Positions 11,601-35,690 of a stretch of DNA of 35,705 nucleotides are shown piece by piece. Source of the DNA: Saccoglossus kowalevskii (lineage: Eukaryota; Hemichordata; Enteropneusta; Harrimaniidae); assembly GCF_000003605.2 (NCBI RefSeq), contig NW_003116948.1, positions 233,028-268,732 of the forward strand, given 5' to 3'. Made by a program: the position numbers and the translations under genes. Within the stretch, counting starts at the first letter, position 1; each line of letters opens with the position of its first letter. The notes under the pieces were generated by a model that saw nothing but the letters and a program-made list of their open reading frames with translations, made no database searches and had not been told where the DNA came from.

Positions 11601-12356
11601 TCTAGAAAACATTATGTTGGGCAATGTCGAAAACAGTGAAGATAGTTTTTCCGATACGGAGCAGCACACTGTATCANNNNNNNNNNNNNNNNNNNNNNNN
11701 NNNNNNNNNNNNNNNNNNNNNNNNNNNNNNNNNNNNNNNNNNNNNNNNNNNCCTCACTGTGAAAAGATATACGTCTCATGCCAGCTTTGAGCATGCACAT
11801 TAGGTAAGTTAGAATTACAGGTGTATGACCAGAAGGCCGTCGGCCTCCTTGCGTGGATTGCGCGTGGGGACACAACGTGTAATGATAATAACAACTTTAT
11901 TGATATCGTATCCCCTCTGGGATCTAGATTAGAATACAATAAGGATATAAGTGTTTAGGAGAGAATGACGAAAACCAATGATGTCTACACATTTGAGTAA
12001 CTTTTCTGTAAGACCGACATTTCAGCTTGCCAAATCACACATGTAAATGATAAAAATCTTATTTCTTCTATTCACACAGAACTCATAAGCTTGGCTGTAA
12101 ATGTGACATTTGCGGGAAGTGTTTCAGCCGCCCGTGGCTGTTACAGGGACATATCCGGACACACACCGGGGAAAAGCCGTTCAACTGCAAAGATTGTGGC
12201 AAAGCGTTTGCCGACAAATCTAACTTGAGGGCGCACATCCAGACACACAGTAATCTCAAGCCGTACGTCTGTAAGCGCTGCAACAAGGCGTTCGCGCTGA
12301 AGAGCTACCTGTACAAGCATGAGGAATCATCATGTAGCCGTGATGACTCCATGTAA
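8535..12356 (+). CDS. scrt: Snail/Scratch-family SNAG zinc-finger repressor (gene)
   Basis: Coding exons are 8535-8637, 11123-11803 (with an N gap at 11677-11751) and 12080-12356. The protein begins MPRSFLVRR, the SNAG motif that in this family recruits histone demethylase/corepressor complexes. A long acidic and basic linker follows, then C2H2 fingers. The fingers include [19 protein letters not shown] and [14 protein letters not shown], shared by Snail and Scratch. The last finger is a C2HC finger reading [15 protein letters not shown], which is Scratch-like rather than Snail-like. Family members are nuclear E-box-binding repressors, often neural. Splice phases agree at both introns, but summed coding length is one base short of a multiple of three because of an apparent deletion near 11782-11785. 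Length is about 353 residues if that base is restored. The superfamily is secure; the choice of Scratch over Snail rests mainly on the last finger. Confidence 0.85.
8638..11122 (+). other. Intron 1 of the Scratch-like gene
   Basis: About 2.5 kb between donor GTGAGT and acceptor AAAACAG. No exon or repeat was recognised within it. A short direct repeat, CAACAGAGAGTA, occurs near 10984 and 11079. The poor pyrimidine tract before the acceptor is compensated by exact phase agreement with exon 1. Confidence 0.65.
11123..11803 (+). CDS. scrt: Linker and first-finger exon (coding exon 2), gapped
   Basis: It joins exon 1 in phase 1 (split Glu codon). It encodes a hydrophobic-acidic patch ([13 protein letters not shown]), then a basic segment with an AT-hook-like core YRGRPR at about residues 79-84. 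A second basic block (RPRKQRKRK), an acidic Ser/Glu-rich stretch and a run of seven Asn follow. After the N gap comes CPHC-type finger sequence [10 protein letters not shown], then, one frame away, ALSMHI. The donor is GTAAGT at 11804, phase 2, which matches exon 3. The visible part has no first finger, so finger 1 would have to lie in the gap. Confidence 0.75.
11677..11751. other. Assembly gap (75 N)
   Basis: Seventy-five undetermined bases inside coding exon 2. In Snail/Scratch proteins the first zinc finger and its linker, about 30 residues, would precede the finger seen at 11752. Twenty-five codons are too few, so the gap length may be only an estimate. Confidence 0.95.
11880..11945 (-). 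mobile_element. LINE/SINE 3'-end fragment in Scratch intron 2
   Basis: On the minus strand this reads AGATCCCAGAGGGGATACGA, then ATCAATAAAGTTGTTATTAT and a simple-repeat tail. The hairpin ATCCC-AGA-GGGGAT followed by an AT-rich microsatellite tail matches the 3'-end plan of the LINE fragment at 1009-1052, although the sequences differ. Only the 3' end is present. Confidence 0.6.
12080..12356 (+). CDS. scrt: Zinc fingers 3-5 and stop (coding exon 3)
   Basis: The acceptor is TTCACACAG. The first base completes an Arg codon, giving IRTH of the previous finger. Three fingers follow: CDICGKCF...[13 protein letters not shown]...HIQTH, and [17 protein letters not shown] ending in C instead of the second H. 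A TGEKPF linker joins the first two. A short tail (SRDDSM) ends at TAA 12354-12356. The C2HC last finger is a hallmark of Snail/Scratch proteins. Confidence 0.9.
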
Positions 12357-12510
12357 ACATGAACACGCTATGGCATGAATTATTTATATTATAATGTAGC
12401 ATTGTGACAATATGCAAGAAATACTTTAACAAGACATGGATCATTTATGCGGAGGAAAGTAACAACAAACACATATAGAAAACAATCGCCGCACAAAACC
12501 AGCTCACCCC

Positions 12511-12516
12511 AATAAA
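12511..12516 (+). terminator. Polyadenylation signal AATAAA
   Basis: The canonical hexamer lies 155 bases after the zinc-finger stop codon. A second AATAAA-like hexamer lies close downstream near 12549. This suggests a short 3' UTR. Confidence 0.5.
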
Positions 12517-12600
12517 ACAAAACCCAATTTCAACTTCGAACGTATTAAATAAATATCCTACCCTCCGGGACGGTGGCTGTAGAACGCCGGTCGAAGAGCC

Positions 12601-12684
12601 CAAAGTACCGTTTTCTGAGAGTTTTCGGCCTTTGTTTTCGCCGTGATGGTTGCCAGGCGGTGAAAATGCCCGGATGTCCGCCCC
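12601..12684 (+). repeat. 85 bp dispersed repeat (copy 2 of 2)
   Basis: This is the partner of 3474-3558, starting CAAAGTACCGTTTTCTGAG and ending GCCCGGATGTCCGCCCC. The copy differs by a few substitutions and one missing base. It lies just beyond the 3' end of the zinc-finger gene. Confidence 0.75.
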
Positions 12685-14408
12685 TACAGTCATTTGTCTA
12701 GGTGATACTAGTAAATGGTTTCACTATACAGTACAGACAATTTGTCCACAACCACAGACCAAAGAAATAATAGGGATGTACAAACCAGGCTAGGAAGCAG
12801 AAGAAGGGGGAATTGCTTAGCCCATTTTCCAATTAAAAGCCAAATTTTAGATTGTATTTTGTCTAATTAAATTGGCCGTCCAAGTAACGAAAATTGCATT
12901 CTAATGGGACCAATACGAAGCAAAACATAACCTTGTACACAATGTATTGACTTGTTATCATAATGATCACCGTTCTTCGCGTCGCCTGGCTTGATATGCG
13001 CCATTTTGTACAAAAGGTATATTTTTTCGTATTTTACCAAGTATTAAGTCAATATACTAATAATATTATAGTATTTACCGCCCAATGATATAATACGTAA
13101 ATTCAAGCGTTATGGTGTTTTTTGTTTGTTTTGTTATTATTATTGTTCCACCATCCCTCTGAATTCACTTCACGAGAGCAGACTCGACATTGTATATACA
13201 CATGTACATGTAGTCCCTATCCCTCGAGGAACCATAAGTTTTTTTTGTTGGCGAGTGATACCAACGAGGTATGAAACCATCTACTGCGTAGACAATTTCT
13301 CGTGTCGCCTCTAAGTAACGGAATGGAGACGTTTTTGTCATGCTATCGGAGTTTACTTGAAACCAGGGTAGCGCTAACCATCTGTGATGTGGAATGTTAT
13401 TGTACGTGGAGCCCGGCTTAATTGGCTTATTAGCGAGGACCTAATACCTCCGGTCATTCGACAAAGAGCTTGCTTCTAAGTGGTTGTCGACGTTGTTTCT
13501 AAAATTGCCACTGTTGTAATTATTTATATTATGTAAATTAAACATTCTCGTATTTAATGTGCGTCATAATCAGTGGGTCATGTGATTGGTGTTTTCGATG
13601 CATACTTATAATAGTGTGCGTGTGTGTGCGAATAGATATACTAGTACGTGTAGTTAGATGAACTGCATGGGGTCCATCTTGTTCAATCCCCCCCCCCAAG
13701 AAAAAAAAACACCCCACGCCAGCAATAAAATCGAGCTCGACGGTATCAGTGTATTAAATTGTCTGATACGTACTGGCTTTACTTTTTATGGTCCTTGAAT
13801 TTGGAACTGAAACAGAACAAAATAAGTCTCAAGGCACGCCTGGGTTTAAGTTGTTGAGGTGCTTCTTTATGTGCCGCCCTCTGTGAACGTGATCGTAGGT
13901 TTTATGCAAGGTAGATATTACCATAAAACAATTTAGTCCTTATAAATACCATGGTTACTATATCTTACCATATCACAACGTGCTCTCATTGTTTTCAATT
14001 ATATGTAGTGTCAGCAACGTATTATAGTTACAGTAACTCTTGTGTGCACGTGTTTGAACATAACGGTCTATATTAGGTGTACATACTATGTTTTTCTATC
14101 GGCAAAAAAAAAAACTGTTTCTCTTGATTTGCATACTCCCCTCACAACTATCCCGATTCGACATCTAGGACGTTGAGGGCAGCATTATTGGGTAATACTA
14201 GTACTAGTACTAGCTATACAATGAAATCTCGAAAGGTAAAGATCCGATACATGTACTAGCATTCACAGAGTATTGTTGGTTTGATGACGAATGAAATGAA
14301 ATTACAGTACACGATTCTATTCAAATATATGACAGTAACATAAAGCCCACGCGACGGGTGTATTTAAAAAGCACGCCATTGTAGTAGACATGCTTACGTT
14401 CGAAAATT

Positions 14409-14529
14409 TTAAAGCGCGAGAGTCGTCATCTGCGCATGCGTCAGATGGCCATAGCGTGTCATTGTTTACAAACCCATGAGCCTTTGTGTTTTTAGCGTAT
14501 TATAACATCGTCGCTTGGGACTCAATTCC
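14409..14529 (+). mobile_element. Truncated M1 MITE copy
   Basis: Starts TTAAAGCGCGAGAGTCGTCA and follows the family to GGGACTCAATTCC, where the right inverted repeat should begin. There it switches to a different sequence containing the arm GAGGGACTGTG (14538-14548). It also has a short internal deletion after TTTACAAA relative to the 20751 copy. Confidence 0.75.
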
Positions 14530-15142
14530 TCCTTGTGGAGGGACTGTGGTTGAAAATTGAACACACACGCACACACAAACGTTGGGGGTTTTTTTTTGGC
14601 TCTAAAATTGGCATTTTCGTTAAAAAATTGCCAACATTTTGCTAAGTTAGTCAAACATGTTTAAAAAAAGGCCCAAAAATTCGGCTCTGTCGTTAAAATG
14701 AGGGTCAAAACAGCGGCGCATAACCTCCGGGTCAAATGTTTTTCTTTGGATTGTTTATCTTGCGACCCCATCTAAAATGTTGGCCCACCGCTGAGCAAAT
14801 CCGTGGGACGTAGGGGGCGCCCCAAGTAGACCTATATTACTCAACTGTTCATTCAGACCATCGAAGTAATCGACCGGGCATCTCCTTTTCAAGTCTCGCA
14901 ATTAGCCTCAGTACATATGGTTGAGGTTAACCTAAGTTGTTAAAATGTAGGTTTTTTTCTGTTCGAGGGCGCACTTCACTTCAATGTCGGACTAGTGCGT
15001 GAAAGTTTATTGACAAGAACCGGTTACTGTGGATCTGGGCAATTGTCTATTAGGCACGATAAAAGTGACTGTTTTCCTGAGCCATTGTGTAGGAGTTTAC
15101 CATGTGTGTGTCTGTTTTTGGAGAAAATGTTGTTACTGTGAA

Positions 15143-15299
15143 CAGGGGCGGCGGCATGGGGGTGGGGGGTTTGTTTAGAATCTGCTCAATTTTGAAATCT
15201 CGACCAGCTGAAATGCTATTTCCTGTATTTTGAGAGGCAAATTTTGCTGACATACAAGGGTTTCAGGTTGATTGCCCCCACCCCATGCCGTCGCCACTG
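15143..15299 (+). mobile_element. 157 bp inverted-repeat element, hAT-like ends
   Basis: The left end CAGGGGCGGCGGCATGGGG pairs with the right end CCCCATGCCGTCGCCACTG, an imperfect terminal repeat of about 25 bp. There is no coding capacity. Termini beginning CAGGGGCG are common in hAT transposons, but no 8 bp target duplication is evident in the flanks, so the superfamily is tentative. The inner segment is shared with 2709-2772. Confidence 0.65.
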
Positions 15300-17011
15300 T
15301 CACACGTGGTTTCAAAAAATAATCAATACTTTATTTAATCTTTGAAACCTAATTAACCCAAACGCTAAGAATGTTGTCTATGGAAATTTAATTAGTGGCA
15401 TGGAAGCTTCAACTTTCTCACGAACGTGATATTCACGTATTTACATCTTCGCCAGCCATGGTTCATTTATTCGATCATCGAGTATGTTTATATCGAGCTC
15501 ACGAAGCCGCGCGATTCGGACGATGTATTATATATCGGACGATGTATTATTTTCATTAACTTTCACATATGGTAGTACATTTGTATATGAAAATAGAGGG
15601 CGCAATTCACCCCACCACTTTCGTAAAATATCTACGTGTAATGTAATGGATTCGCATTGTTCCTGTTATTGTTTGAATAATAGTGATTGTGTCACTCGTT
15701 TATTGAATCGACACCGCAGTCAGAGGTGAAACGAATGATTTCGCAGCCAGTGGTGGTAAAAATATGGCAGCATACAGCGGTATGATGATTTCCCGGTCAC
15801 CTAGCTTGTCACTATCGTTCATACTCACCGTATAATATGCTTGGTGGTATTAAGACACACCCATGTAAACCCCCAACACTAGACAATAATAAACACGTAT
15901 ACGATTAATATCATCACCATATCTAGTCCGTCAGCTCAATGATTCCTTGTCTGCGGCTTGCAAATAGCGGGTCACACTTTCCGCATCGGGGTACCCAGTG
16001 ATAATTGCCGTGAATTACAGTGGACTGGGCTGATTCCATTCGTATATACGGTGGTCTGCCCATGATACAAATACAGCGAGGTTAAGTGAGCTGTCCCGTA
16101 AGGTGATAAATTTTATGAAAGTTGTTATTTTGACACAAATATACATTTCACATGAAATAGATAACGGACCGCTTCATAACTTCATGACAGACGCCAAGCG
16201 CAAAACGCGGGGCAAAACGTTGACAAGCCAACGAATAATTTACACATAATTTTCGGGGGGCACATTTTCGGGATTTTAGTTAATATATCAACACAGACCA
16301 CTGACACTTGTTACAGTGCCGACATATTTGATGCTATAGATTTCAATGATTTATCTCGTAATCCAGCGCCGTGCTGTCCCCGATGAGACTAAATGAGCAA
16401 TGCGTGCAACATTTAAAAATGCTGTAACCGATGAGTATGTATTCATCGTATACATGCATTGAATATCAATGAATGGTTTTATAACAGCAAACGCTATTGC
16501 TTTTGTGCAGTCTTTAGTAACCACGGTAACCAGCTGCGCAACTGCGGCCATTTTTTTTTAAATATTGGTATTCAAAATAAAAGAGAAAAAAATATATAAT
16601 ATTTTATAATAACAAATAATAAGGTAGCGAGAAAATGATTTGCATACTAGTTTTCATGTTTCATTCGTGAACGCTTGTATCTACGTGTGACACGCTCAAA
16701 TATGAGTAAATTTATTCATCAACCTATGGAACTTATTAACTACTATAGCATCGCGGTAATTCTCTGTCCTCATTCTATCTAGGACGGCACACCATTACCA
16801 GTCTGCGGATATACATATAAATACCGTCAGTCTTTTTACAGCGGGTAGGTACCGCGTGCTTTGCCTATAATCGAAGCATTGTCTAATGACACAAATAGCG
16901 TGCAACTTATAAATATCGCTAGGTCATTACGGTGTGTCAGATGACATTATACGGAAATAGTTATTTTCGTTATGAACTTGTTTTCGGCAAGCTGTAAAAA
17001 TAACGGTAAGT

Positions 17012-17062
17012 CACGTGATTTAGAAATTACATATTCTAATCACGTGGTTAATTGTGACCAAT
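17012..17062 (+). promoter_or_regulatory. Inverted E-box pair plus CCAAT box upstream of the CCP gene
   Basis: CACGTGATTTAGAA (17012-17025) and TTCTAATCACGTG (17034-17046) form a near-perfect dyad around an 8-base spacer. Each arm holds the CACGTG E-box bound by bHLH-Zip factors (MYC/USF/MITF type). A CCAAT box lies at 17058-17062. The block is about 300 bases upstream of the signal-peptide ATG, so a promoter role is plausible but unproven. Confidence 0.4.
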
Positions 17063-17348
17063 GGCGAAGACGAGTTTCGATCCCGGAATTCAATGCTTTA
17101 TACGAAGAAGCCGCGATGAAACGGTGTTATTATTCCAGCGTCTACAGGTAGTTGTCAAGTTACACATCGCGATAACACTCCCTGGGATATGCAAATCAGA
17201 TGCGTGTGTGACCTGAAAATATCGCTTGTTTCACAGTGCTTGATTCGAGTAAAGATACCAGTAGACCGTGTCCTATTTCCGTGTGATCGCAGTACAATGC
17301 TCAGAGCTCTCCGACACGACCGATATACAATGTAATTGCGTTTACAGC

Positions 17349-17430
17349 ATGCGCAGCTCTGTGGGACGACACTTGAACTTGATCCCGGTACTGTATTTGT
17401 ATTTAATACCACAACATCTCACACAAGCAG
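17349..17430 (+). CDS. Signal-peptide exon (coding exon 1)
   Basis: ATG with A at -3. It encodes MRSSVGRHLNLIPVLYLYLI then PQHLTQA: a basic start, a hydrophobic core and a polar cleavage region. The donor GTAAGT at 17431 leaves phase 1, exactly what the next CCP exon needs. The link across a 4 kb intron is inferred from phase and the lack of any other secretory start upstream of the first CCP. Confidence 0.65.
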
Positions 17431-20400
17431 GTAAGTTAACACGAGATTTGATATATCCAACGCATTGCTACTAACACGGGGGCTGAATGAGAAATTATTT
17501 TCATATAATAACAGCAATCGTTATAACTAAATATTAGAAATTCAACCACCACTTTATGTATGTATATTTATTTTAAAGATATACGATGCGATGAAAATAT
17601 AACAAAGCTATAAATACCATGCAATATTTTTTTTTTTCAATTTAAATGATAATTTCTCCCATACAAATAAACGGTTGCGTGGTGATAAATTACTGCCCAG
17701 TGTCGTATATATTGAGTTTGGTACTGTGGATACGTCACATTGATTATCAATCGTACTTCATGTTTACTTATCTGCTGTACTATCGAGTGAAAGTGTCAAT
17801 ACGGGTGTGGTCTGTCACAGCACGCCAACAATCGCAATTACCGGCTAATCATATTTACGTCAAAAGCAAATGTCGAATGTACAATGTACGTCATATATGA
17901 TAAATACAGCTATAAAAGTGTAAATTAGGATGATGACGTGCACGGGGCAATGGATCTTCCGAATTGTTGCGATACAGGAAATGTTAGGTAAAGTGGGACC
18001 GTATGGGGTTTGTTATGTCGAGGAAAACAGCGACGTGAGCAACAATGAAAGTATTGATATACTCAACGACACACGCCAGCCTGTCTTTTGGGCATGGTGC
18101 ATTGATGGACAGGATGTATGATTTATAGAGAAAACAGTTCCACAATGCTGGGCGTGCGACTGTGACGATGATTTCTCACGGTAAACTACGCCACACACTC
18201 TCGGCGTCGGAATCAAACAAACCGCGCGGTTTTATTGTTCAAATTTCTGAAGTCAACTACTATAATGATTGTTGTTAAGGAAACACCACTTATAATTTAA
18301 TGTTTTATATCACCTGTATTGATTACTATTGTGAATATAATGTATAATGTATTCGTATTGTTGTGGAAATTAAAAACATATAAAATTGTAATGCAGAGAT
18401 AATGAGTACCGACAGTTATAATAACTCATATTATTTTATAATTAATTACTTCTTTCATAGGCGTTTGTTAAGTATTGATGCGAGCAACTAGTTTATTTAT
18501 TGACTTGTCATTTGATCGACTTTAATAACGCCGCACTAATCACATAAATGTGATATCAATACGTCTTGATTCCGATATTTTGATTTCTCAGAAGTTTTAA
18601 AAAAACGTATGAAAGAAAATCTTTTGAAATGTAACATGGATAATTTATAATTATTTATAATGAAAATATATAAATTTACATCACTCAAATACGGGGAAAA
18701 GATCCATTCTGACAATTTTGAATGGTAAGTAGGGAGAGTATTGCTTCATTTCGAAACAGTGGGGCTAGTATCTCCCATTTTGCTACCTTTACCAACTCCG
18801 TCATTGTAATCAATACAGATGATATAAAACATTAAACTGTAATTACGTCTTTTTCTTAGTTATGTACTTGTTCAATGAGATTAAAACATCCATGCAAGGA
18901 TGGATAAGAGAGATATCGTGGATTGTCAATTTTGGGAAAATCCTTGTTGCCAAGAATAATATCATGTTTTGAAAAAAATTGTAAAGGAAGGCAGTCAAAG
19001 CACAATCGTTGTATTGTTATTTTTTTTTATATACAATATGCATTTTTAGGAAATTACTAGATTGGAATTATCAATACATGTCATATAGATCTTTGTTTGT
19101 GTGCAGTATAGTTGGATTCAGATTTAATTTGAAATTGCGTGTTACAATTATAACAAATGAAAAAGTTTGAACATCAGAGAAATCAATTACGTTGTTACAG
19201 TACTCTATATTGCGCGTATTCGCCAGTTTACTTTCAGTAGTTAGCACTGAACGAATATTTCACTATCTATATTTGACGAATCTCAGTAATGAAAACGTTA
19301 CTTATAATTTAATGTTTTATATCACCTGTCTGTATTGATTACTATTGTGAATATATATAGATGTATTCGTATTGTTGTGGAAATTAAAATATATAAAATT
19401 GTAATGCAGAGATAATGAGTACCGACAGTTATAATAACTCATATTATTTTATAATTAATTACTTCCTTCATAGGCGTTTGTTAAGTATTGATGCGACCAA
19501 CTATTTTATTTAATACTTGGCATTTGATCAACTTTTAGTAATGCCGCACTAATCACGTAAATATGATATAAATACGCCTCGATTTCGAGATTTTGTTTTC
19601 AGAAGTTTAAAACAAACGTGTGAAAGAATGTTCTTTTTGAAATGCACTATGGATAATTTATAATTATTTTTATCTACATTACCCGTGACATGGGATAAAA
19701 GATAATTTGCAAAGGAAGGCAGTTTATAAAACATCATTGATATGTCAAAGCACAATTGTTTCATCCTCATTTTTTTATTACACAATATGCATTTTTAGGA
19801 ATTTACTAGATTACAAAACGGAATTACCAAGTAATTTACGTGGATTTCAGTAGGCAACATTTACTGTACTGTGACGTAATCTTAGGGACGGACCTAAATG
19901 TCAACAGCCAACCAATTCATCCAGATTAATGGTAACGGAGATTTTTTCACTTGCATGGTATCGATGCATTTATTAAAAAAAATGATCACTTAAAAAGCTA
20001 TTATCGTATCGACACTGGTGTCACACGCTCCAATAATTCACCAGTGTCTTACAGGATGGCAATGAAATCGATTACTACTCGTAGCGTGCGAAAATGTGTT
20101 ATTATTGGTTGCAATGTGTAGAATCACTTATGTGTACAGCAAAAACCGTAGAAACATCTAAAGTAATGAAACCAATGATATCCCCAGACGGTGTCCGTTG
20201 TTATGGTTACGTATTCGGCGAATTGTAAGATTGAAATTGCGTTATACTGTGAGAAGAAAATTATTCATCAGCCGAAATTAATTTGATATAATTATACTGT
20301 CTGTATGCTCTTTTATTAATCATAACGTTATTCATATCACATGCTGCATATTATTATCTACACGATTGCATGAGCCTGAGTACGCCATATTTGTAAAGCG

Positions 20401-23400
20401 CGGTGTTCGTTGCGCCACGTCTTGTTTGATATGGGACGCATAGCGACGTACACAGCGCGTGTAAAATACATTGTTTATTTACATGAAATTCGAACACGCG
20501 CTGCGCGACGACCACCGCCCTTTATTACTATGCTGGTTGTGACAAGCCCTCCTCATCGAAAAATATGTATAACCAAATGATGTCGTAAATTTATAAGTCC
20601 AAATGACAAATGGCTGACAAACATTTCACAAGTTATGCCACAATGATTCAAAGCAAACAACTAATATACTTCAAGAGAGAAAGAAATAAAAAAAAACAAA
20701 TACGCCGCAGTACTTAGTCAAATCAGTAAGAAAAGAACATAATATGGACGTTAAAGCGGGGGAGTCGTCACCTGCGCATGCATCAGATGGCCATAGCGTG
20801 TCATTATTTACAAACAAGCGTCTACCCATGAGCCTCTTGCGTCTTTAGCGTGTTTTGTTATCGTCGCTTGAGACTCAATTCCCGCGCGTGCGCAGGTGAC
20901 GAACCTCCCGCTTAAAACATCAAGTGATTTATACACAAAATCGGGTGACTGTATTTAGAGTAAATTTTGGCAAATGATAGATACAACTAGGATGACCTAG
21001 GGTGACATGCGATAAATATCACCTTGAAGTCTCGCGAGAAGTCGCGAAAAGCAAAATAAACTGTGAGGGGAATGGTTTAGTATACGATTAGCAACAGGTG
21101 GTTTACTTATATTGTACTTAGCGTATGTTTCCGTGCACGTGAAATCTCGCGTGATTACAGTGACCATGTATAGATATGGTCGATGTAAGCCCTTCTCTAG
21201 TATCCGCCTTCGATGCCGGTATAATTTCAGGGATGGGATGTAATATATGTCTACACCTGTGGTCCGCCAGAAAGAGATTACTTGCTTGCTTGCTAACAGC
21301 TGGTTCACTAACATTCTTTTTTTTCATCTTAAAAATAATCTCCCCATCTGTTCAGGTACAATTCTGGTAACATAAGGAAGTGGATTTTGTTTTTTTACAG
21401 CATGTGACGTGAACTTTGACCCACCGGAGCATGGTTCTTTTAGGAACAACCCTACGTCAGTCGACACCTACGGTGTGCTGTTTATCGAGTGTGACCAGAA
21501 CTACACGTTGTCAGGACAGTCATCGCTCTTTTGTATGGGCAGTTTCTTTCTCTCACTGAACTTGCCAGACTGTGTTGGTAAGGGTATTTTTTGTTTATTT
21601 TGGGCTGCCTTTAAATCAAATAATACGCTTCTCGCGCCGGGCCGTGTTTGATATGGATTCCATGCAATGTCATACACTGAAGTCAACTAAGGCATGTACG
21701 TCATATTTTATTTATAAATCGAAATAAGTACGAGCCCGTGCACTGACGTTGGCTTTTGTAACGCGTTCTATTTCATATAATGAAGGTTCGTACTGACCGA
21801 CCGAGCCAATCGTCTCGTTTATTTTGAACATAAACCATATTGTCTATGCTTTGGATAAAACATATTTCAGTGGAGTTTGTATATTTTTTATAAACACATT
21901 CGATTGTAAGTATAAATATACCCGTGTTGTATTGATTATGTGTTTGTAAATCGAACGCGCATTTCACGCCGCGCCAACTATAACGCTTTAATCAACCAAG
22001 ACTCCCTTATAACAAAATGTTATTTCTCTTACGCCATCCTTTACATAATTATGGCTTATTAATCTGTGATTGGCTCAATTTCTATTTGATCTGAATAACA
22101 ATATACTCATGTACTCGCGACAGACGATGGTCTAAAAAGGTGACTATTCCAATCAATCAATCAATCAATCGATTAGTCAGCGTGGTGGTGCCCTCTGGTG
22201 GTGATATCAGGTCCAAGTTACCAAAGAATTACGCTCGAGTTTAGACTGCTGATCCCGTATTCATTCTTTTTCAGCCAACTGCGCAGATCCTGGCGCACCT
22301 GAAGCCGGCAGTCGTTCTCCTGACCCTACCCAGCCACACAATTTGTATAGACATGGTGACGTCATTGATTTTCAATGCGACAGAGGATCCAGTCAGCAGG
22401 GGGCGCCCTCTTCCACATGCACGGACGGAGAATGGAACCCTGTAAACGTACCCCCTCCTTGTCAAGGTAGGAAAACTCATTTGTAATATCATCTTTTACG
22501 CATACTGTGTTGTCGATTCTTTGCGCCGTTCCACTCGCTATAGCTCTCTCTAGTAACGCCCAGATGCATGTAACCTTTAATTGCGGCCAGCCTTTGGCCG
22601 TAAAACCAATCACAGAAGTTCACGTGATCACGTGTGCAACCGTGCTTTCAATCGAACCAATGACCAACGAGCATTATATTTTCCTGAGAACACTCGTAAC
22701 GTATGTATGCCTCTAAACAGGCATCGAGATATTACCGCCATCGTACCTACGCGTTATTATGATCAGGTATAGTCGGTCGGACACTACACAGAGACTGGCC
22801 TACAAATACTGCCTGTTTGCGGTTGTGATGATGGCTTACACGTATTATTAGTAAATATTCACAATCAACAACTTAGAAAAGAAACTACACTTATATATAT
22901 ATATATATATAGAGATAATCTATCGTGTATTCACCGTAGCTGTGCATTTCAAACGCTAACCATTTCTTGATTTCAGCATAGGGATGCGTTTCTTATAGCT
23001 ATACCGTCATTTCTACTGGGGGAATATCGAAAAATATCTTGTACTGGTGCTTGACAAACTGCTCTGGCAATACTGGCCTAGACAATACCAACATGGATAC
23101 TACCTCACCCCACATGCATTTAACAGTAGACCACGTGCACGTTTACCCCCTTTATTACATCTCGTCGTGCAGTATAAACTGCGCCCTCTAGCGGCTAAGT
23201 AACTATGTGACGTCAAAATGGCGTCTTCCTTTCCTTGTTTACGTCACAGAGTCGCTTCGTCTACATAGGTCGCTATTTATAGAACCACAGTCCCTCTATC
23301 CCTCTATAGAGGGACTGTGATAGAACAGTTGTATTATGTTTAACGTGCTATTTACTTTTCAACAGCTGATTGTGGTGACCCTGGTACCCCAGTTAACGGA

Positions 23401-26400
23401 CACCAACTAGAGGGCGGCAGTTATCTACATAACGGCATTGTACAATTTGCATGTGATGCTGGTATATTGGTAGGTTATTCTTCAACCACGTGTAATAACG
23501 GCGTATGGAGCCATGTCACGCCCTCATGCGGAAGTAAGTACACTATTATTTTGTTTTCCATGGAATGCGTTGGCACGTATTTTGTATACCTACTATCTAA
23601 GTGTTGTCGGCAAAATTTTGTTGAAAGTCCTTTCAATTTTAAGTATATCACATGCAAGTATATAAATAAGTATATAAATAAATAATAAAATTACATTCGT
23701 TGGGTCAAAGGTCAAATTTAAGCTTGTATCAAGTTAAATAAATTATGAGCAAAAATAGCAAGGTTATACGTGAGAGTATTAGTATTACTTGACACAATTT
23801 TACAACCACGTTATCCATTGTGGAATTGGGTGGTGTATAACCAATTTGGTATATATATATATTGTTCTTCATGGGTTTCATGAAGAGGGCAAGCGAGTAT
23901 AAAGTGAAATTCCTTCTGTGTTACTAACGAATTACAAAATGCATGTTTCAGCATCCAAACCCTGTGTTCTGCCCTCCTCGGCTGCTAACCCATGACTCGA
24001 GCATTTAATCAGTTGTTTCCAACGTTAATTAAATATCTGCGTATCTAGCCTTTGACCCCTGAACCACACCCAACAAAATCAACGGTCGACGACTAATTTG
24101 TTATTATTTCTGCTGATTTCAATTTGGTAACTCGCTTTTCACCTTTATTTAGAACTTTTTTCAATAACTTTAACCTGTAGCTGATGCATCTACCAGTTGT
24201 AGATAGGGAAACAGGAAAGCTGTCACATTCTCCTAAAGCAGCTACACCAGGAGAGGATGATTCCAAAAACACCTCAAATGAATTCTTTCTAATACCTACT
24301 GCGACAAGTAATTGTTGTTTTGACAACGTACATAGCGTCACATATTGCACGTTCTAAATCTGCTTCCGATGATAGCGAACACAGAAAACGGGTCCAGAAT
24401 GTTTTGAAATGTTTTGTGTGTTGCCTTGACAACCGTCCGTTTCAATAACTCAACAACTATTTTAGAGTCACCATTCTCTCTAAAGTTTTACTAATATGGC
24501 CGCCGTTTTTAAAATGGGGGAAATCCCACCATTGCTTGCATGTGCATAGATGGTTCTGTTAAATATTCTCACCATGTAGTCTGAAAGCAGTTTGAACTGA
24601 CCATCTGACTAATGTGTTTTCGTTCGTCTAAAACTGTTATAGCAATATCGAAATCTCATCCAAACTTCCACTAACCATCTTTTAGTTCATCTATATACAT
24701 TCTGACCTGCGATAACTGAACGAAGACAATTCCGTTCATGGTTGTGTAGTTAATCATTTATAAGAATATAGTAAAATTGTACTTCTAATAACGGTCTTGG
24801 ACAACGATACCGTGTAGTCGCAAAGAGGCGCAATTTATTGTAAACCGTGCAGCACGGACATTATAGTCTATTACATTAAGAACGTTGGCTCAAAAACAGA
24901 TTCACTGACTAGAGGTTGAAAAAAACATTATTTTTTGTCTACTTTGATCTGTTTTACCATTTAAAAAGTTATCAGAAGGAATCACCACGTGTACTGTAGA
25001 TTATACTAGTAGTTTGTATACTAGTAGGAATGTTTGTTTTCACTCCTTAGCCGTAATTATCCACAGCGTTGTGGTCATGGTAACATCGGGAGGAGACTTG
25101 AAAAGCGATGACGTTAATAACATCACCGTTGACGCAATCGTGACGTCAAGCTCTCTTGGGACTGATATCAGCGGCAGTGGGTTGTGGGATATTGAAATCT
25201 ACCTACAAGACTCCAACGGCGACAACTACACCGTTGACTCGCCGACGCTGAGTTCAGACGAAAGTAATCAGACACTCCTAAGCGGCGGTGAAATAAGGTT
25301 CAACGATATAGAGTTTTCGGTTAACGGGAGTGAAATACCATGCTCGGATAGTTTAGAAGTGTGCGTCATTCTGCGAAAGGGAATCTCACCGAATCCCGAT
25401 TTTGAACTGAGTGGTGTTCAGAATGAAATAAGCTTAACGGGATGCCAGTCTGTAACCTGTGGTAAGTTAGGGGGCACGGTTGTAAAAGTGCGTCTCCATC
25501 ATTCATATGTGTGTACCCACACAACAAGCCGGTGCAAGTAACAAACGTGTTAATTTTAAATATCTATATTGCGGTGCCATGACGCGGTAATAGGAGTAGA
25601 AGCTTTTCACCATTCAAATTCGCCAAAAAAAGGTAAATTTACTCGGACCCGTACCCACTGTGCAATTCTGAATTTCTCAACTACTAACAGAAGATACTGT
25701 TGCTGTATGTAATGGCGCATTTCTCTTCTGGTACTTCAGTAGTTAACTCGTATAGTTACCGGTATTATTATCACACACCGTCGAAATAAGTCATACAAAA
25801 GTATCTTGTGTTGTAAACAGCGGTATTCTATCGACAGGCACTTGTCAGGATCCCGGTTCGCCGGTGAACGGACGACAGGAAACAGGCGCTAGCTTTGTGA
25901 ACGGGGGTGTCGTAGAATTTGTATGTGATCTTGGTATACTGGTGGGAACCAATCAAATCACTTGTTACGACGGCGAGTGGAATGACGTCATTCCTTCATG
26001 TGCAAGTAAGTTAAAAAAGAAAGAATCCAGAAATGATCTTAATCGGTGTCTTTTAATGCGTAATTCATTCACATATTTTGTATTTCAGTCGTTATAATTA
26101 ATAACGTCATGGTCACAGTCACATCAAGTAATGAACTCAACGGAAATGGCATCAATGACGTGTTTCTCAATATTGCTGCGACGTCAAGCATTCTTGGGTC
26201 TGACGTCACAGGTACTGATCTCTGGGGGCTTGAAGTGTTTCTACAAAACACCGAAGGTGACATGAACGTGCCGTTTGTACCACAACTGACGTCAGAGGAG
26301 GCCGGCCAGAGGCTTTCCCCCGGGGACCAGATACTGTTTAATGGCATTCAGTATACAGTTGATGGTAGCCAGATACCATGTGACGAAACCTTAGAAGTTT

Positions 26401-28875
26401 GCGTAACTCTGAAAAAGGGAAATTCACCGAGTCCGAATTTTGTGCTCAGCGGTGATCCCGACGATGAGGCACTCACCGGGTGTCAATCTATGTCCTGCGG
26501 TGAGTAACTGTTGTGTTTTGTGTAATAAGTATTGTTGTTTAACCAAGTTCTACAAACCAAACAGAAATTTTTCTTGACAATTCACAAAATGAGACGCCCA
26601 CCGGAAATTCGGATCTCCAAATTCTGTACTGAATTATTTAATTTATACAAAAAGTTATTTCCACAATAAAATATAAATATTCAAAAAAACAGGATCTTTC
26701 ACCAAATTTGACTGAACATTATCCGTCATTCAATTTGAAAATAAGGTTCAGTTGACCAGAAGTTCTGTCCATAGATTAGGGTGACCCTGTGCGAAGAAAA
26801 GTGACTACATTAAAATTCTGATAAATAAACGAAAGAGATTTTTATAAATTTCAAGTTTCTCAACAAGTTTCCACCTTGTTACGTATGACGATGCTTACGT
26901 AAGTACAAACAAACAACTCTCCCTATCTGAGCTAACATCTTTTGCTTGGCGGCAGACGACAGTTTCAACGAATGTCAATTACATGTATGGCTACTTGTAA
27001 ACATTACAGATGTCGACGAGTGTCAGGACCCAGACATCTGTCCGCCACCAAACCACGTCTGCGAAAATGTACCCGGCACTTTCTATTGCCGATGCGCGGG
27101 AGGATACAGTGGTGAAGACTGCCACGTCACCGATAACTGTGTGCCGGTAAACCCATGCCAGAACGAGGGCAACTGTACGTCATCACTGAATTCATACCAG
27201 TGTCAATGCGCCTCTGGGTTCGGAGGAATTGACTGCGGTGAGGAAATTGATTATTGCGACCCCAATCCTTGCCAGAACGCCTCCATCTGCAAGAATTCGA
27301 CATTTGGTTACAAATGTGAGTGCCGTTTGGGTTTCGAAGGAGATGTTTGCAACGAGACAGGTAAGACCATTAATTTTGGAAAGGACTGGTGAAAAAATAG
27401 TAAAACAAATTCCAGCGACTTTTTAAAAAAAAAAAATGGATTAAAACGGGGGAGTGGTCACCTGCGCATGCGCCAGGTGTCCATAGCGTCTCATTGTTTA
27501 TATGCAAGTGTCTACCCATGAGCCTTTGTGTTTTTAGCGTGTGTTGTTATCGTCGCTTGGGACTCAATTCCCGCGCCTGCGCAGGTGACGACCCTCCCGC
27601 TTTAAACTGCACTAAAATGTCATTTATTGTAAAAGATAGTCGAAACAACATATTTTTCTGCGAGTAACATTGGAATTTCTTCTGACTGAGGACGTATATA
27701 AATTGTTACAGTAAATAATATATTACTCATTCTTAGTGCCTTACTTCACCGTATGTCCAGAAGGGGAAACTCGGGTGTACACCCTGGAGGCCAATTCGAC
27801 ACACGCGTACGTCAATATCACCCTCGCTGCTGAAGACTGGCTACAGAGAAACTTGACAGTCGAAAGCGTTGGCCACGACGTAACTCTTCCTGGAACAGTT
27901 GAGTTTTCGATGGATTTTCGGCACGGGAGAGAAGTCTGGTTCCGAGCAACTGATGAAAATAGAAATATCGCCTACTGTGTGTTTATGCTACAACTAATTG
28001 GTGAGTCGAATTTCGATATCGTTGCGTTCATAAAATCTACTTCTAACGGGTTGTCCGTGAGTCATAACCTCCCTCATGACACAATGAACTTTCGTTTTAA
28101 CCGGATTAAGATGTTTTGACTGTTTTTTTACAGATGCCGAGCCCCCAGATATCACATGCCCGGTCAACGTCTTCCTGACGACGACCAGAACAAGCGATGC
28201 GGCAGTTTGGCCTCTGGCAACAGCTCACGACAACATCGGGCTCCATCCCATAAAACCAATCACGTACAACAGACAGAATGGATCCGAGTTGTTTGCTGGT
28301 GAACAGCGCCACCATGTGACGGCAACTGCGACGGATTCTTCTGAGAACACAGCCTCTTGTAATTTCACGGTCAGTTTGAGGAAAACAGGTGAGCAAATAA
28401 TCTTAGCGGCAGATTTTACTTTGATTTCTTTCTTAATTTAACATATACAAAAACGAGTCAGATGAAGAATCACCATGCAATGTACATTGCCAACAACAAA
28501 CTTCCAGTTGAGCTAACCAGTGATTCCTGCAAACTATATCAACCAATCACAAAACAGCAAACACCACACCACTCTTCATTTCTTCCTTTTTTTTCAGAAG
28601 AACCGCCGAAAACATCGCCACTAACAGCCATCATAGCAGGCAGCATTCTCGGCATTGTCGCCCTCATTATAATCGTTGTTTTTATCAGTGTCTTGATATG
28701 CCATCGTAGAACAGCTCACGATGACAGCAAGGCGTATATGCATGACAGATCTCGCCATTTTCAGGACCAGATTGACATGAAGGCACAAAACAGAAGTAAT
28801 TATTACGGTCAGGGACAACAACAGACTTCTCACAATGGCACATTCGACAACCCAACAATTGACATTCACCGGTGA
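17349..28875 (+). CDS. CCP/EGF/HYR type I membrane protein (gene)
   Basis: Eleven coding exons: 17349-17430, 21401-21577, 22275-22466, 23366-23533, 25051-25461, 25838-26005, 26089-26499, 27010-27360, 27737-28000, 28134-28388 and 28598-28875. They sum to 2757 nt, a multiple of three, giving 918 residues. All ten introns are phase 1, as expected of shuffled extracellular modules. Order by residue: signal peptide 1-27; CCP 28-87, 87-151, 151-207; unknown module X 207-344; CCP 344-400; X 400-537; three EGF 537-654; two HYR 654-827; transmembrane helix about 835-860; tail to 918. CCP, EGF and HYR modules mediate adhesion or complement-like binding, so a cell-surface adhesion or recognition role is likely. 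The ligand is unknown and no named orthologue was recognised. An alternative or extra exon in the long introns cannot be excluded. Confidence 0.85.
18288..19073 (+). repeat. Large direct repeat, copy 1
   Basis: AT-rich. It begins ACTTATAATTTAATGTTTTA and ends around TTTAGGAAATTACTAGATTG. Most of it is repeated at 19300-19829. The middle (about 18660-18975) is much longer than in copy 2. It has no coding capacity or terminal repeats typical of LTRs. Confidence 0.85.
19300..19829 (+). repeat. Large direct repeat, copy 2 (internally shortened)
   Basis: Colinear with 18288-19073, sharing long blocks such as TAATGCAGAGATAATGAGTA and CATAGGCGTTTGTTAAGTAT. About 260 bases of the middle are missing, and small indels and substitutions are scattered through it. 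The divergence implies an old tandem duplication separated by about 225 bases. Confidence 0.85.
20395..20523. mobile_element. GC-rich foldback/MITE-like element
   Basis: The outer arms AAAGCGCGGTGTTCGTTGCG and, in reverse complement, AAAGGGCGGTGGTCGTCGCG form an imperfect terminal repeat. A perfect inner inverted repeat CAGCGCGTGT (20453-20462) / ACACGCGCTG (20494-20503) is nested inside. It is about 129 bp with no coding capacity. The element stands out as GC-rich within an AT-rich intron. Target duplication is unclear. Confidence 0.55.
20751..20915 (+). mobile_element. Complete M1 MITE with TTAA ends
   Basis: Flanked by TTAA on both sides (20751-20754 and 20912-20915), 165 bp. The left repeat AGCGGGGGAGTCGTCACCTG pairs with the right end CAGGTGACGAACCTCCCGC; both include CACCTGCGCA. 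TTAA target sites are typical of piggyBac transposons, so this may be a piggyBac-mobilised MITE. It has no coding capacity. Confidence 0.8.
21401..21577 (+). CDS. CCP/sushi domain 1 exon, tryptophan lost
   Basis: Acceptor TTTTTTACAG, donor GTAAGG. Four cysteines are in sushi spacing (ACDVNFDPPEHG, IECDQNYTL, LFCMGS, PDC). The near-invariant tryptophan between the third and fourth cysteine is replaced (CMGSFFLSLNLPDC), so this is a divergent CCP module. It directly follows the signal peptide. Confidence 0.8.
22149..22173 (+). repeat. AATC tetranucleotide repeat
   Basis: About six CAAT/AATC units in an intron, 15 bases before a CTCF-like site. Confidence 0.85.
22188..22201 (-). promoter_or_regulatory. 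CTCF-consensus-like site A
   Basis: On the minus strand CCACCAGAGGGCAC matches the vertebrate/insect CTCF core CCASYAGRKGGCRS at all 14 positions. It is intronic, 74 bases before the CCP2 exon. Confidence 0.45.
22275..22466 (+). CDS. CCP/sushi domain 2 exon
   Basis: Acceptor TTTTTCAG, donor GTAGGA. It contains ANCADPGAPEAGSR, IDFQCDRG, SSTCTDGEWNPV and PPCQ: four cysteines plus the conserved EW before the last cysteine. The loop after the first cysteine is longer than in the other copies. Phase 1 at both ends. Confidence 0.85.
22393..22406 (+). promoter_or_regulatory. CTCF-consensus-like site B (within CCP2 exon)
   Basis: TCAGCAGGGGGCGC matches 13 of 14 positions of CCASYAGRKGGCRS on the plus strand. 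It overlaps coding sequence, so it could be coincidental. Confidence 0.3.
22891..22911 (+). repeat. TA dinucleotide repeat
   Basis: About ten TA units within the intron between CCP2 and CCP3. Confidence 0.9.
23181..23194 (-). promoter_or_regulatory. CTCF-consensus-like site C
   Basis: On the minus strand CCGCTAGAGGGCGC matches 13 of 14 positions of the CTCF core. It is intronic. Confidence 0.4.
23286..23319. repeat. 14 bp hairpin of the CACAGTCCCTC family
   Basis: CACAGTCCCTCTAT and ATAGAGGGACTGTG form a perfect stem with a 6-base loop. The arms are shared with 3568-3596 and 14538-14548. It lies in the intron before the CCP3 exon. Confidence 0.75.
23366..23533 (+). CDS. CCP/sushi domain 3 exon
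   Basis: Acceptor TTTCAACAG, donor GTAAGT, 168 nt. Canonical CCP: ADCGDPGTPVNG, VQFACDAGILVG, TTCNNGVWSHVTPSCG. It is the same length as the CCP4 exon (25838-26005) and very similar to it (DPGxPVNG, CDxGILVG). It is the first half of a duplicated CCP+X exon pair. Confidence 0.9.
23404..23417 (+). promoter_or_regulatory. CTCF-consensus-like site D (within CCP3 exon)
   Basis: CAACTAGAGGGCGG matches 13 of 14 positions of CCASYAGRKGGCRS. It overlaps coding sequence, so it could be coincidental. Confidence 0.3.
23534..25050 (+). other. Intron between the CCP3 and X1 exons
   Basis: About 1.5 kb. No further exon was recognised. A minus-strand open frame at 24093-24350 has no identifiable domain. 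Confidence 0.6.
25051..25461 (+). CDS. Unrecognised 137-residue module X, copy 1
   Basis: Acceptor ACTCCTTAG, donor GTAAGT, 411 nt, phase 1 both ends. It begins VIIHSVVVMVTS and includes SSLGTDISGSGLWDIEIYLQ, IPCSDSLEVCVILRKG and LTGCQSVTCG. There are four cysteines (CX6C near residue 100, CX3C at the end) and alternating hydrophobic strands that suggest a beta-sandwich. It has four N-glycosylation sequons (NIT, NYT, NQT, NGS). I do not recognise the family. An internal acceptor at 25066 is possible, but the alignment with copy 2 supports 25051. Confidence 0.8.
25838..26005 (+). CDS. CCP/sushi domain 4 exon
   Basis: Acceptor ATCGACAG, donor GTAAGT, 168 nt. GTCQDPGSPVNG, VEFVCDLGILVG and ITCYDGEWNDVIPSCA give the four cysteines and the Trp. 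It is the closest relative of CCP3 in the window and lies only 83 bases before the second X exon. Confidence 0.9.
26089..26499 (+). CDS. Unrecognised 137-residue module X, copy 2
   Basis: Acceptor GTATTTCAG, donor GTGAGT, 411 nt, exactly the length of copy 1, and it aligns without gaps. Shared residues include VII, VTS, TSSxLG, LWxxExxLQ, IPC, LEVCVxLxKG, SPxPxF, LSG and LTGCQSxxCG. About half the positions look identical by eye. It lacks the N-glycosylation sequons of copy 1. It is followed by the EGF exon. Confidence 0.85.
27010..27360 (+). CDS. Three EGF-like domains in one exon
   Basis: Acceptor ACATTACAG, donor GTAAGA. EGF1 begins DVDECQDPDIC and has the calcium-binding N-terminus plus the Asn/Asp-hydroxylation pattern CENVPGTFYCRC. 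EGF2 is NPCQNEGNC...YQCQCASGFGG. EGF3 is NPCQNASIC...YKCECRLGFEG. Each has six cysteines. A longer reading opening at 26946 would insert non-EGF residues. The acceptor at 27008-27009 restores the standard DVDEC start in the correct phase. Confidence 0.9.
27441..27605 (+). mobile_element. Complete M1 MITE with TTAA ends (intronic)
   Basis: Flanked by TTAA (27441-27444 and 27602-27605), 165 bp, the same length as the 20751 copy. The left end AACGGGGGAGTGGTCACCTG pairs with the right end CAGGTGACGACCCTCCCGCT. It sits 80 bases after the EGF exon, so it is a recent passenger in the gene. Confidence 0.85.
27737..28000 (+). CDS. HYR domain 1 exon (divergent)
   Basis: Acceptor ATTCTTAG, donor GTGAGT, 264 nt. 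It starts VPYFTVCPEGETRVY and ends VWFRATDENRNIAYCVFML. The paired cysteines and the ATDxxxNxAxC block are the HYR (hyalin repeat, Ig-fold) hallmark. The middle is unusual for HYR and the PPxIxCP start is degenerate. Confidence 0.75.
28134..28388 (+). CDS. HYR domain 2 exon
   Basis: Acceptor TTTTTTTACAG, donor GTGAGC, 255 nt. EPPDITCPVNV at the start, AVWPLATAHDNIG in the middle and VTATATDSSENTASCNFTVS at the end match the HYR pattern closely. The domain is adhesion-associated and membrane-proximal here. Confidence 0.88.
28598..28875 (+). CDS. Transmembrane and cytoplasmic exon
   Basis: Acceptor CTTTTTTTTCAG. A short stalk (EEPPKTSP) leads into a hydrophobic helix AIIAGSILGIVALIIIVVFI followed by SVLICHRR, a stop-transfer signal with a membrane-edge Cys. 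The tail of about 55 residues is Gln/Asn/Tyr rich and ends FDNPTIDIHR. FDNPTI resembles the FxNPxY endocytic motif but lacks the Tyr. The stop is TGA at 28873-28875. Confidence 0.88.
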
Positions 28876-28882
28876 GGACACG

Positions 28883-28888
28883 AATAAA
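28883..28888 (+). terminator. AATAAA close after the CCP gene stop
   Basis: Only 7 bases after the stop. It would give an unusually short 3' UTR, so a later signal may be the one used. Confidence 0.3.
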
Positions 28889-29835
28889 CTGGTTCTACGT
28901 CATTTAGCATCGGTGGTCTGCATAGATCTAATGATATCGTATATCATGCACTATTTCATATCAAGATCGTGCCTGATGTACAAAAAAAAAATACATCCGG
29001 GATTTCGGTTCCGAATATCATTATGCAAGAAACAAATGTTAATTAACATCACGTGACGTTAACAACCAATCATTTCTTTACATACAGGTAATGTATGTGC
29101 ATAAATTACTGCATGACACAGTTATGGCCAGCACTAAGAAATAGACACATCTATATAATACACTTCTTCTCTCTGTCGGCGCCTGGCTTCAAAACTAACG
29201 ACGGCGGGGGGGGGGGGGACACAGTTACTAATCGGCAATTGTATCATCGCTTTTAAAAGACGGTGACAAAAAGATACAATTGTAATTGCCCTATCAGCTG
29301 GATTATCGGAAATCAAAGTAATGTCTATTTGCATATTTTATGCCACGAGTTATTTTGTCCGCGTACGTCACCAACCGCCATTTCCGCACATCCATATCCA
29401 GCTATCGATCTCCTCGCCATGACTTGGCAGGTAAATGTTGAAGCACCTTGAAATTCAGAAAATGTGGGTAGATATGAGCTGACGACCATTCTTCTTGGAA
29501 ATAAACTTCGAATGAGCCTAATTGTTGGTGACTTGGAAAGAAGCTACAAGTTGCTAACATAATCGGACATAATATCGCGCGCATCGGAATCCGCAAATGA
29601 AACATTCAGTTTTTGGCAAAATTATAATCCGAAAGTCATTTTTTTTTACAATTTTTATATTGGCTCCCATGGTTAAAGAGTGAAATATAAGATATATTGT
29701 CACATACATAATTTTCGATATTTATTGCAATACTTACGTTTGTATTATTTTAAGTTTCGGAAAATGTGTGTAATTTGTTTACTAGCTCTCATAATAGTAG
29801 AACTTTTTGCATGTTCTTGATTTCAATCACCATTA

Positions 29836-31793: not shown

Positions 31794-34012
31794 CTAGAAA
31801 TGAAGAGAACAATTACGGATAAAACTAACATGAATCGCCAGTAATACAAAATTCGTCCACTTTTTTCGCGTAGTTACGGGCAGTAGCCATTATGTTGTCA
31901 CTCGCTCCTGGAAGGTTTGGTGGAGGTCTGTTTGCTACAATTTCAAACCTCAAACTGTATGGTTAATGGATGTGTCGTGACAAATTTTACTGAAAATATC
32001 TCCGAAGGAAAATTCGGCAACAAAATCTGTTTCTGTACCTTGTGTTCGTGATAACTTTAATGATAGCATCAAAAAGTCCATCAGATGTTAATGTCCCAAT
32101 CTCAACCGTCTCAACCATGCCTTTACTTCGTAGTCTGGCAAAGTTATCAAAATGATCGTCATAGATAGGTATTCCCACCATGGGCACCCCGTGATAGACC
32201 GCCTCGTAGATACCGTTCAACCCACCATGGGCGACGAACACCTTCGTATTGGGATGACCTGCGAGAAAAGTGAGATACAGTTTGAATTTTCTAGTTCAAC
32301 CAAGTTTATTTACTAGTAATTCATCTATCTATTATGTATATGCCAAACATGAGGTTTATGAGGAATAATTTAACTTTGAGAATGACGCCAGATACCGATA
32401 AACTACAGAGTTTCATTACTATAGCACTAGAGGGCGTTCTCCAAACTAATCAAATTGTATTAGACAACCTATCGAGAGACCAGATACAGCTAAACACTAT
32501 CCCAGGTCTCACACTACAATTAAAATAAAAGACAATAGAAAAACTTTGAAAAAAACAGGGTAATTTTACGTATACATACAGCCAATGTAAGTGAGTCATC
32601 GATAATGAACGTCGCAAAATGAAGCCAACTCAACACACTTGTATTAGTAATATTAGACAATTGTCCCAGCCGACTACTCACTCTAAATATACCAGTCCGC
32701 CATTTCATAACAGTTGGTTTTCGATAAAACTGTATTTAAAAATTGTCAAAGTGAATCCTGTGTCCGGTTTAAATTATCAATCCGCATAACTGTGCAACGT
32801 ACCTAGTAAATCATTCTGCGGTATCCATTTAGACAGCTTGGTGTTATTTCCCAACGTTGATGGCGGTGTTCCGTCGTATTTTATGGCAACTTTTTGAGAC
32901 AGCCTGGCAAGAGCGCTGAAAACGATCTCTGATTTTACGCTATTATGAGACAGATCAATCAACGAACCGAAAGAGAAGACAACCAATCCAATATCAGCAG
33001 CTGATCTAACGAATTCCTCCCATTCCTGGAAGAACAATAAATGTGATTACTGTTATATATTGTTACTTCCCTAATATCATAACACACCTAACTCCTAGTG
33101 TTTCGTCGTACAGGAAATATTAACCTACATGTACCAAGTCATAATAATAATAATCACACTACTTACTTCAGCTAATGGTGTTGCTGGTTTGGCCAACAAA
33201 CCACCAATACGTACGGTGTTCGGCATCATAGGGCAAGGGAAATCCACGTCCCAGTCCATTCCGAAGATGGTTAGTTGAGATTTACTGAGCGATTCCACGA
33301 TGCTCACATCGCGGTCGATGTCACATTCCTGTTTTAATCTATTATACGGTGGCAGCAATAATAAGTTAACAGCAAGATGCACGACAGCGTGGTTGACAAC
33401 GTTCGTTAGTCTCTCCCAGAGGGTCATTCTGTCTGTTAACCCGGAAACAAAACCAGGAACGTACGACAGAGGCGTCGGCATGTTCAGCAGGTAAGTGTCG
33501 AATGACGGGAGTGGGCGATTGGTAGACACCGTTATGAACGGTAGGGAGAGTTTATCAGCGATGAGAGCGCGACAGGGTGTCACATTATCCCCTATCACTA
33601 TGTCGAATTTAGATTGCTCCAGGCGTTGCATCAAATCAGCGTCTAGTAGTACGGTTCTACAATCTGTAAACATTGCGTCGTTAAGTAACGACGTGGCACG
33701 TTGAAAATACATGTTTCCCTGCAGCAATTCGTTCATGGCGTCCCAAACCCTTAAAAACATATCTTCGTCCATCGCACTGTGGTACTTCTCAACTGTGAAG
33801 ACGTTTCCATGCCCAAATGTCTTATTCAAATCGTTGTGGTTCTCCGCGACAAGCAGGGTCACCGAATGACCTTTTCTCGTCAGATGCTCGCCTATTTTCG
33901 ACAGATACAGGAAATGGCTACCGACTGACATAGCTAAAACAGTCAGTATATTGTAGGCTGAGATGTTGGTTACAAACAGGGCCAATAAAGCGAAACACAT
34001 TCGAACTGCCAT
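31514..34012 (-). CDS. UDP-glycosyltransferase (UGT, GT1 family) gene
   Basis: Minus-strand exons are 33167-34012, 32803-33025, 32039-32258 and 31514-31793. The total is 1569 nt and about 522 residues, the usual animal UGT size, with phases 0, 1 and 2 at successive introns. It has an N-terminal signal peptide (MCFALLALFVTNISA) and SHFLYLSKIGEHLTRKGHSV with the likely catalytic His33. The UDP-binding signature is FVAHGGLNGIYEAVYHGVP, and a C-terminal membrane helix and KQKSD tail follow. UGTs transfer a sugar from a UDP-sugar to small lipophilic acceptors in the ER lumen. Oddities: His392 replaces the usual Gln of the donor-binding DQ pair, and Ala366 replaces Thr/Ser in the signature. The acceptor is unknown. 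The gene is convergent with the CCP gene. Confidence 0.92.
32039..32258 (-). CDS. UGT exon 3: UDP-sugar signature
   Basis: Acceptor TTCTCGCAG. GHPNTKVFVAHGGLNGIYEA then VYHGVPMVGIPIYDDHFDN is the UGT signature. The donor-contact pair is Asp391-His392 (codons at 32155-32157 and 32152-32154). The donor GTACAG is a weak site, but it fits phase 2 and the conserved NTRYK junction. Confidence 0.9.
32803..33025 (-). CDS. UGT exon 2: start of nucleotide-binding half
   Basis: Acceptor TGTTCTTCCAG. EWEEFVRSAADIGLVVFSFG is the classic UGT block after the interdomain linker, and LSKWIPQNDLL precedes the signature. The donor is GTACGT, phase 1. Confidence 0.92.
33167..34012 (-). CDS. UGT exon 1: signal peptide and acceptor-binding half
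   Basis: The start has G at -3 and +4. The 282 residues include the signal peptide, the catalytic-His motif, and FDIVIGDNVTPCRALIADKL, whose Asp is the likely catalytic partner. PMMPNTVRIGGL lies near the domain junction. The donor is GTAAGT, phase 0, after PLAE. Confidence 0.92.
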
Positions 34013-34081
34013 AACTACATATGTATATGTCAGTATATGATATACACCTTGCTAATCACGGGCGACCTACGACCTGTCTAT

Positions 34082-35367: not shown

Positions 35368-35690
35368 ACAACACAAATTTAATTTTCACAACACAACTTT
35401 AATTTTCACAACACAAATTTAATTTCTCACAACACAACTTTAATTTCTCAAAACACAACTTTAATTTACACCACACAATTTTATTTTCTCGCAACACAAT
35501 TTTAATTTCTCGCAACACAATTTTAATTTTCACAACACAACTTTAATTTTTCACAACACAACTTTAATTTCTCACAACACAACTTTAATTTCTCACAACA
35601 CAAATTTAATTTCTCACAACACAACTTTAATTGCTCACAACACAAATTTAATTTCTCACAACACAACTTTTATTTCTCGCAACAACTTTT
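35368..35690 (+). repeat. 20-21 bp AT-rich minisatellite
   Basis: About 15 head-to-tail units of consensus ACAACACAACTTTAATTTCTC. Variants alternate at AAC/AAA/AAT before TTTA and at TTTC/TTCTC at the end. The array reaches almost to the window edge and probably continues in degraded form. No spacers or coding sequence were seen. Confidence 0.95.

Follow-up and report, generated by a model that had tools for sequence, protein, structure and literature searches.

We analysed a 35,705-nucleotide stretch of DNA from the hemichordate Saccoglossus kowalevskii (NCBI RefSeq assembly GCF_000003605.2, contig NW_003116948.1, positions 233,028 to 268,732 of the forward strand), hereafter the window. It holds a putative surface-protein gene in which a 137-residue module occurs twice. 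A first-pass annotation of the bare sequence had singled out this module as a possible undescribed extracellular domain. Each copy occupies one exon (positions are those of the window, residue numbers those of the gene model described below):

25051..25461, + strand: module copy 1 (M1), a 411-nt exon encoding 137 residues, aa 207-343
26089..26499, + strand: module copy 2 (M2), a 411-nt exon encoding 137 residues, aa 400-536

Both exons have AG/GT borders with good splice consensus (cttag/CC...TGTG/gtaagt for M1 and ttcag/TC...TGCG/gtgagt for M2) and are in phase 1 at entry and exit, as had been claimed. The gapless alignment proposed earlier was also reproduced: over 136 whole codons, 63/136 residues are identical (46%) and 101/136 are positive (74%), with a BLASTP E value of 5e-45 in one single comparison. 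The global alignment score was 345, and the highest score among 2000 residue shuffles was 32. The three shared motifs, LWxxExxLQ, IPCxxxLEVCVxLxKG and LTGCQSxxC, could be located in M1 (aa 251, 302 and 335) as well as in M2 (aa 444, 495 and 528). The length of the frames alone is weak evidence because 12 of 200 base-shuffled copies of the 10-kb region 19001-29000 contained, on the + strand, an open frame of 136 codons or more; it is the paired similarity together with the splice sites that rules out chance open frames.

At the nucleotide level the two exons are 58% identical. Among the 136 codons, differences fall on the first position in 49 cases, on the second in 41 and on the third in 81, and the Nei-Gojobori proportions of synonymous and nonsynonymous differences are 0.73 (pS, near saturation) and 0.33 (pN), respectively. 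The excess of third-position changes and of pS over pN therefore indicates that both copies have been constrained and maintained as protein. Judged by these comparisons, the divergence of M1 and M2 is old. No third copy was found when the six-frame translation of the window was searched with a two-copy profile (best other match, E 0.24).

Joining the AG/GT-bordered exons around the modules gave an open gene model with 11 exons that encodes 919 residues. Ten of its ten introns are in phase 1, so that phase-1 introns flank all nine inner exons, including both module exons (class 1-1). The encoded order is a signal-peptide-like exon, three CCP domains, M1, a CCP domain, M2, three EGF domains, an HYR-like domain, an HYR domain, a transmembrane (TM) helix and a tail. 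The other exons of the model are as follows:

17349..17430, + strand: putative first exon of the coding region, signal-peptide-like N terminus of 27 residues, donor CAG/gtaagt, phase 1
21401..21577, + strand: CCP1 exon, weak and divergent, phase 1-1
22275..22466, + strand: CCP2 exon, Pfam Sushi E 6.4e-07, phase 1-1
23366..23533, + strand: CCP3 exon, Sushi stretch, first half of cassette 1
25838..26005, + strand: CCP4 exon, Sushi stretch, first half of cassette 2, phase 1-1
27010..27360, + strand: EGF exon, three EGF domains in one exon, the first of the calcium-binding type
27737..28000, + strand: HYRa, degenerate HYR-like exon of 88 residues, phase 1-1
28134..28388, + strand: HYRb, HYR domain exon, Pfam HYR E 9.3e-13
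28598..28875, + strand: last exon, transmembrane helix followed by a cytoplasmic tail of 58 residues and the stop

The first exon came from a scan of positions 12401-21400 for hydropathy and a donor site, which returned candidates at 13557 and 17349; a second scan with other thresholds returned 17349 only. The exon at 17349 fits the phase, and including its 27 residues gives module positions (207-343 and 400-536) that fit the residue numbering of the first-pass annotation (207-344 and 400-537). Across the whole model protein, Pfam Sushi matched four stretches at E up to 1. The EGF exon matched EGF_CA (E 4.7e-11, two stretches) and EGF (E 1e-06, three stretches). Two labels are weaker than those of the other exons. 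CCP1 searched alone reached 19.1 bits (E 0.0018) against Sushi, just below the cut-off of 20.7, and HYRa searched alone gave no Pfam match, while its comparison with HYRb gave a BLASTP E value of 2e-4 over 35 aa and a global score reached by 6 of 5000 shuffles. The TM helix has the top 19-residue hydropathy mean (3.45, from aa 843), and with the signal-peptide-like exon suggested by the scan the product would probably be a single-pass type I surface protein.

The location of the modules on phase 1-1 exons within a CCP/EGF/HYR protein agrees with the extracellular nature first assumed for them; this family context, like the exons, phases, copy similarity and constraint, is read from the sequence. 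The gene has CCP, EGF and HYR domains in common with metazoan CCP-EGF-HYR surface or matrix proteins, of which we take SVEP1 to be an example. It differs from them by two unassigned modules, predicted to be sandwiches, beside the CCP domains and by ending in a TM helix and a short tail.

The duplication seems to have involved more than the module. CCP3 and CCP4, each immediately 5' of a module, are identical at 29/55 positions, whereas each of the remaining five CCP pairs shares 12 to 23 identical residues over 58 to 64 alignment columns. A blastn comparison of the two CCP+module cassettes gave three matches, all at equal within-exon offsets: the CCP exon has one of them and the module exon the other two, while the introns have none. 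The simplest account is that the CCP+module pair was probably duplicated once, long ago, as a two-exon cassette. The unit of duplication was thus probably larger than the module alone, which had been the earlier proposal.

We searched M1 and M2 by hmmscan against Pfam-A at E up to 10 and judged the matches by the gathering cut-offs of the families. M2 had no match, and M1 had two weak ones far below the cut-offs, to DUF4589 (14 bits, E 0.052, cut-off 27) and YDG (13.6 bits, E 0.081, cut-off 25). Neither copy reached the gathering cut-off of CCP/Sushi, EGF, HYR, CUB, fibronectin III, Ig or CARDB. Because most neighbouring exons (Sushi, EGF, HYR) were recognised in the same way, the method can be considered to have worked. 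NCBIfam and PADLOC gave no match to the modules, PHROGs gave a single match at chance level (E 0.17), and PDB sequences gave two matches each for M2 and for the two-copy profile, all at E 0.35 to 0.91. The inability of the first-pass annotation to place the module by motif thus extends to Pfam, NCBIfam, PHROGs, PADLOC and PDB sequences, and no known domain matched the module significantly along its full length, which would have spoken against a new family, across the family models searched. The modules could instead be diverged copies of CCP or HYR domains of the same gene. Among six exon peptides (CCP1-4, HYRa and HYRb), the sole BLASTP match was between M1 and CCP4 (E 0.014, 29% over 38 aa), and the module profile gave E values of 0.019 for CCP4, 0.24 for CCP3, 0.3 for HYRb, 0.35 for HYRa and 0.5 for CCP1. 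We rejected this origin, taking the M1-CCP4 match, partial and from a six-sequence database, as chance.

Relatives were also sought in larger collections. Three scans of viral contigs returned 51, 11 and 85 pattern matches and two scans of prokaryote genome contigs returned 553 and 40, with no relative confirmed by tblastn in either; M2 had three phage matches at E 0.8 to 6 and none among plasmids. The absence of relatives there says little, because by their descriptions the collections cover viruses, prokaryotes, phages and plasmids but no animals. It is quite possible, at a little short of even chances, that the domain is already catalogued elsewhere (as an unintegrated InterPro signature, or in CDD, SMART or ECOD), or is frequent in the predicted proteins of lancelets, hemichordates, echinoderms or molluscs, and simply has no Pfam model. 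Class 1-1 exon modules of CCP/EGF/HYR proteins are often widely shuffled, which favours such an explanation, whereas a description of the module was not found in the titles and abstract openings of the papers listed by literature searches.

AlphaFold2 predicted a beta-sandwich for both copies, as had been guessed from the sequence (best models: pLDDT 79.2 and pTM 0.75 for M1, pLDDT 83.2 and pTM 0.79 for M2). In the predicted structures, some seven strands form a two-sheet sandwich of the Ig-like/E-set kind, which aligns over the greater part of the module. Four cysteines are conserved (C304, C311, C338 and C343 in M1; C497, C504, C531 and C536 in M2), and the spacing of the first two is CX6C as had been noted; that of the last two is CX4C by count, not CX3C. 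Nested pairs C97-C136 and C104-C131 (module numbering), if they form disulfides, may staple the final two strands.

The best structural matches were common sandwiches of the Ig-like/E-set type, with 5-16% identity in the listed VIA rows, which are scattered over many differently named proteins. The best Foldseek match was 5cl2, the N-terminal domain of the bacterial sporulation control protein Spo0M (E 4.3e-3 for M1 and 2.0e-2 for M2; 13% and 10% identity), presumably an arrestin-like domain. RbmA of Vibrio cholerae (4be6, 10% identity), a bacterial biofilm matrix protein which we take to consist of tandem fibronectin-III-like domains, was separated from the top VIA row, like transglutaminases and 3isy, by no more than about 1 to 3 Z units, among differently named sandwiches. 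Matches that we take to be GH2 glycosidase Ig-like domains and transglutaminase C-terminal domains had 5-14% identity to the modules; to our knowledge, the LW/IPC/LTGCQS signature does not occur in them, and they are not modules of CCP/EGF/HYR surface proteins. The CARDB domain 3idu is likewise a small sandwich (Foldseek E 1.4e-2 to M1, 11% identity). CARDB of Pfam did not match M1 or M2 at E up to 10, and 3idu was not among the best 50 VIA rows or the best 50 Foldseek rows for M2, which excludes nothing. The M1 model had no match in BFVD at E <= 0.001.

The modules could also belong, as divergent members, to an Ig-like/E-set family that is already known (CARDB, BsuPI-like, fibronectin III or transglutaminase-C-like), being too distant for HMMER but close enough to be joined to it by HMM-HMM comparison. 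We regard this as unlikely, given that neither copy has a meaningful Pfam score and that the VIA rows are spread over many differently named proteins. From the models, the fold is probably of a known kind and not new, and novelty, if any, is confined to the sequence family, whose signature has no significant match in the family models searched. The candidacy of the module as an undescribed family therefore stands for its sequence, which is match-free in the libraries searched, but not for its fold, which is predicted to be of an ordinary Ig-like type.

On balance, we consider it rather likely that M1 and M2 are 137-residue extracellular Ig-like (E-set-like) sandwich modules that arose by a probable CCP+module duplication in a single-pass surface receptor or adhesion protein. 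The CCP+module array would project from the membrane on an EGF-HYR stalk and could form its ligand-binding or homophilic adhesion face, with the conserved modules as the likely recognition face of the putative receptor or adhesion protein. The modules might also be structural spacers that bind no ligand themselves and make the CCP array longer and stiffer, which we hold possible but somewhat doubtful. Ig-like sandwiches frequently serve as spacers, and the modules do alternate with CCP domains. Four N-glycosylation sequons are present in M1 and none in M2, which suggests a barer surface for M2; the four sequons, if used, would mask much of the surface of M1, as would suit a spacer. The 63/136 identity in the face of near-saturated synonymous change and the shared LW, IPC and LTGCQS motifs suggest, however, constraint beyond that of the fold, even though core residues could account for the conserved identity and motifs.

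Beyond this gene, we propose only tentatively, and as somewhat unlikely, that the modules found a family, not described so far, of Ig-like domains stapled by disulfides, which has spread as CCP+module cassettes among surface proteins of several invertebrate phyla and serves recognition in immunity or in gamete or cell adhesion. If the module recurs in other animals, a profile would annotate part of many uncharacterised invertebrate receptors and provide a domain with a predictable fold for binding tests. Should it prove restricted to this gene, or to have been catalogued before, the case would be one of ordinary exon shuffling and internal duplication.

The window contains several other features. 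A short repeat family, probably a MITE-like (miniature inverted-repeat transposable element-like) element, is found in four places (461-558 on the - strand, 14409-14529, 20733-20918 and 27425-27607; pieces 81-92% identical). Two of the four lie within introns of the gene model. A transposon origin of the module exons was also considered as a rival reading; the repeat family overlaps neither of these exons. The first intron of the model also holds a direct repeat (18288-18659 and 19300-19672; 89% identity over 380 columns). Upstream, an open frame at 1164-1634 (- strand) has a sub-cut-off match (E 0.033) to zf-RVT, the zinc-binding region of reverse transcriptases, and is perhaps, by this resemblance, a retroelement remnant. 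A C2H2 zinc-finger exon lies at 12054-12353 (+ strand), preceded by an open frame at 11038-11787 (+ strand) that includes a stretch of N, which appears as X in its translation. Downstream, parts of a UDP-glucuronosyl/glucosyltransferase gene were found at 31990-32295 and 33128-34051 (both - strand; Pfam UDPGT E 4.6e-25 and 1.9e-37), and a 21/62-bp tandem array occupies 35368-35684, near the end of the window.
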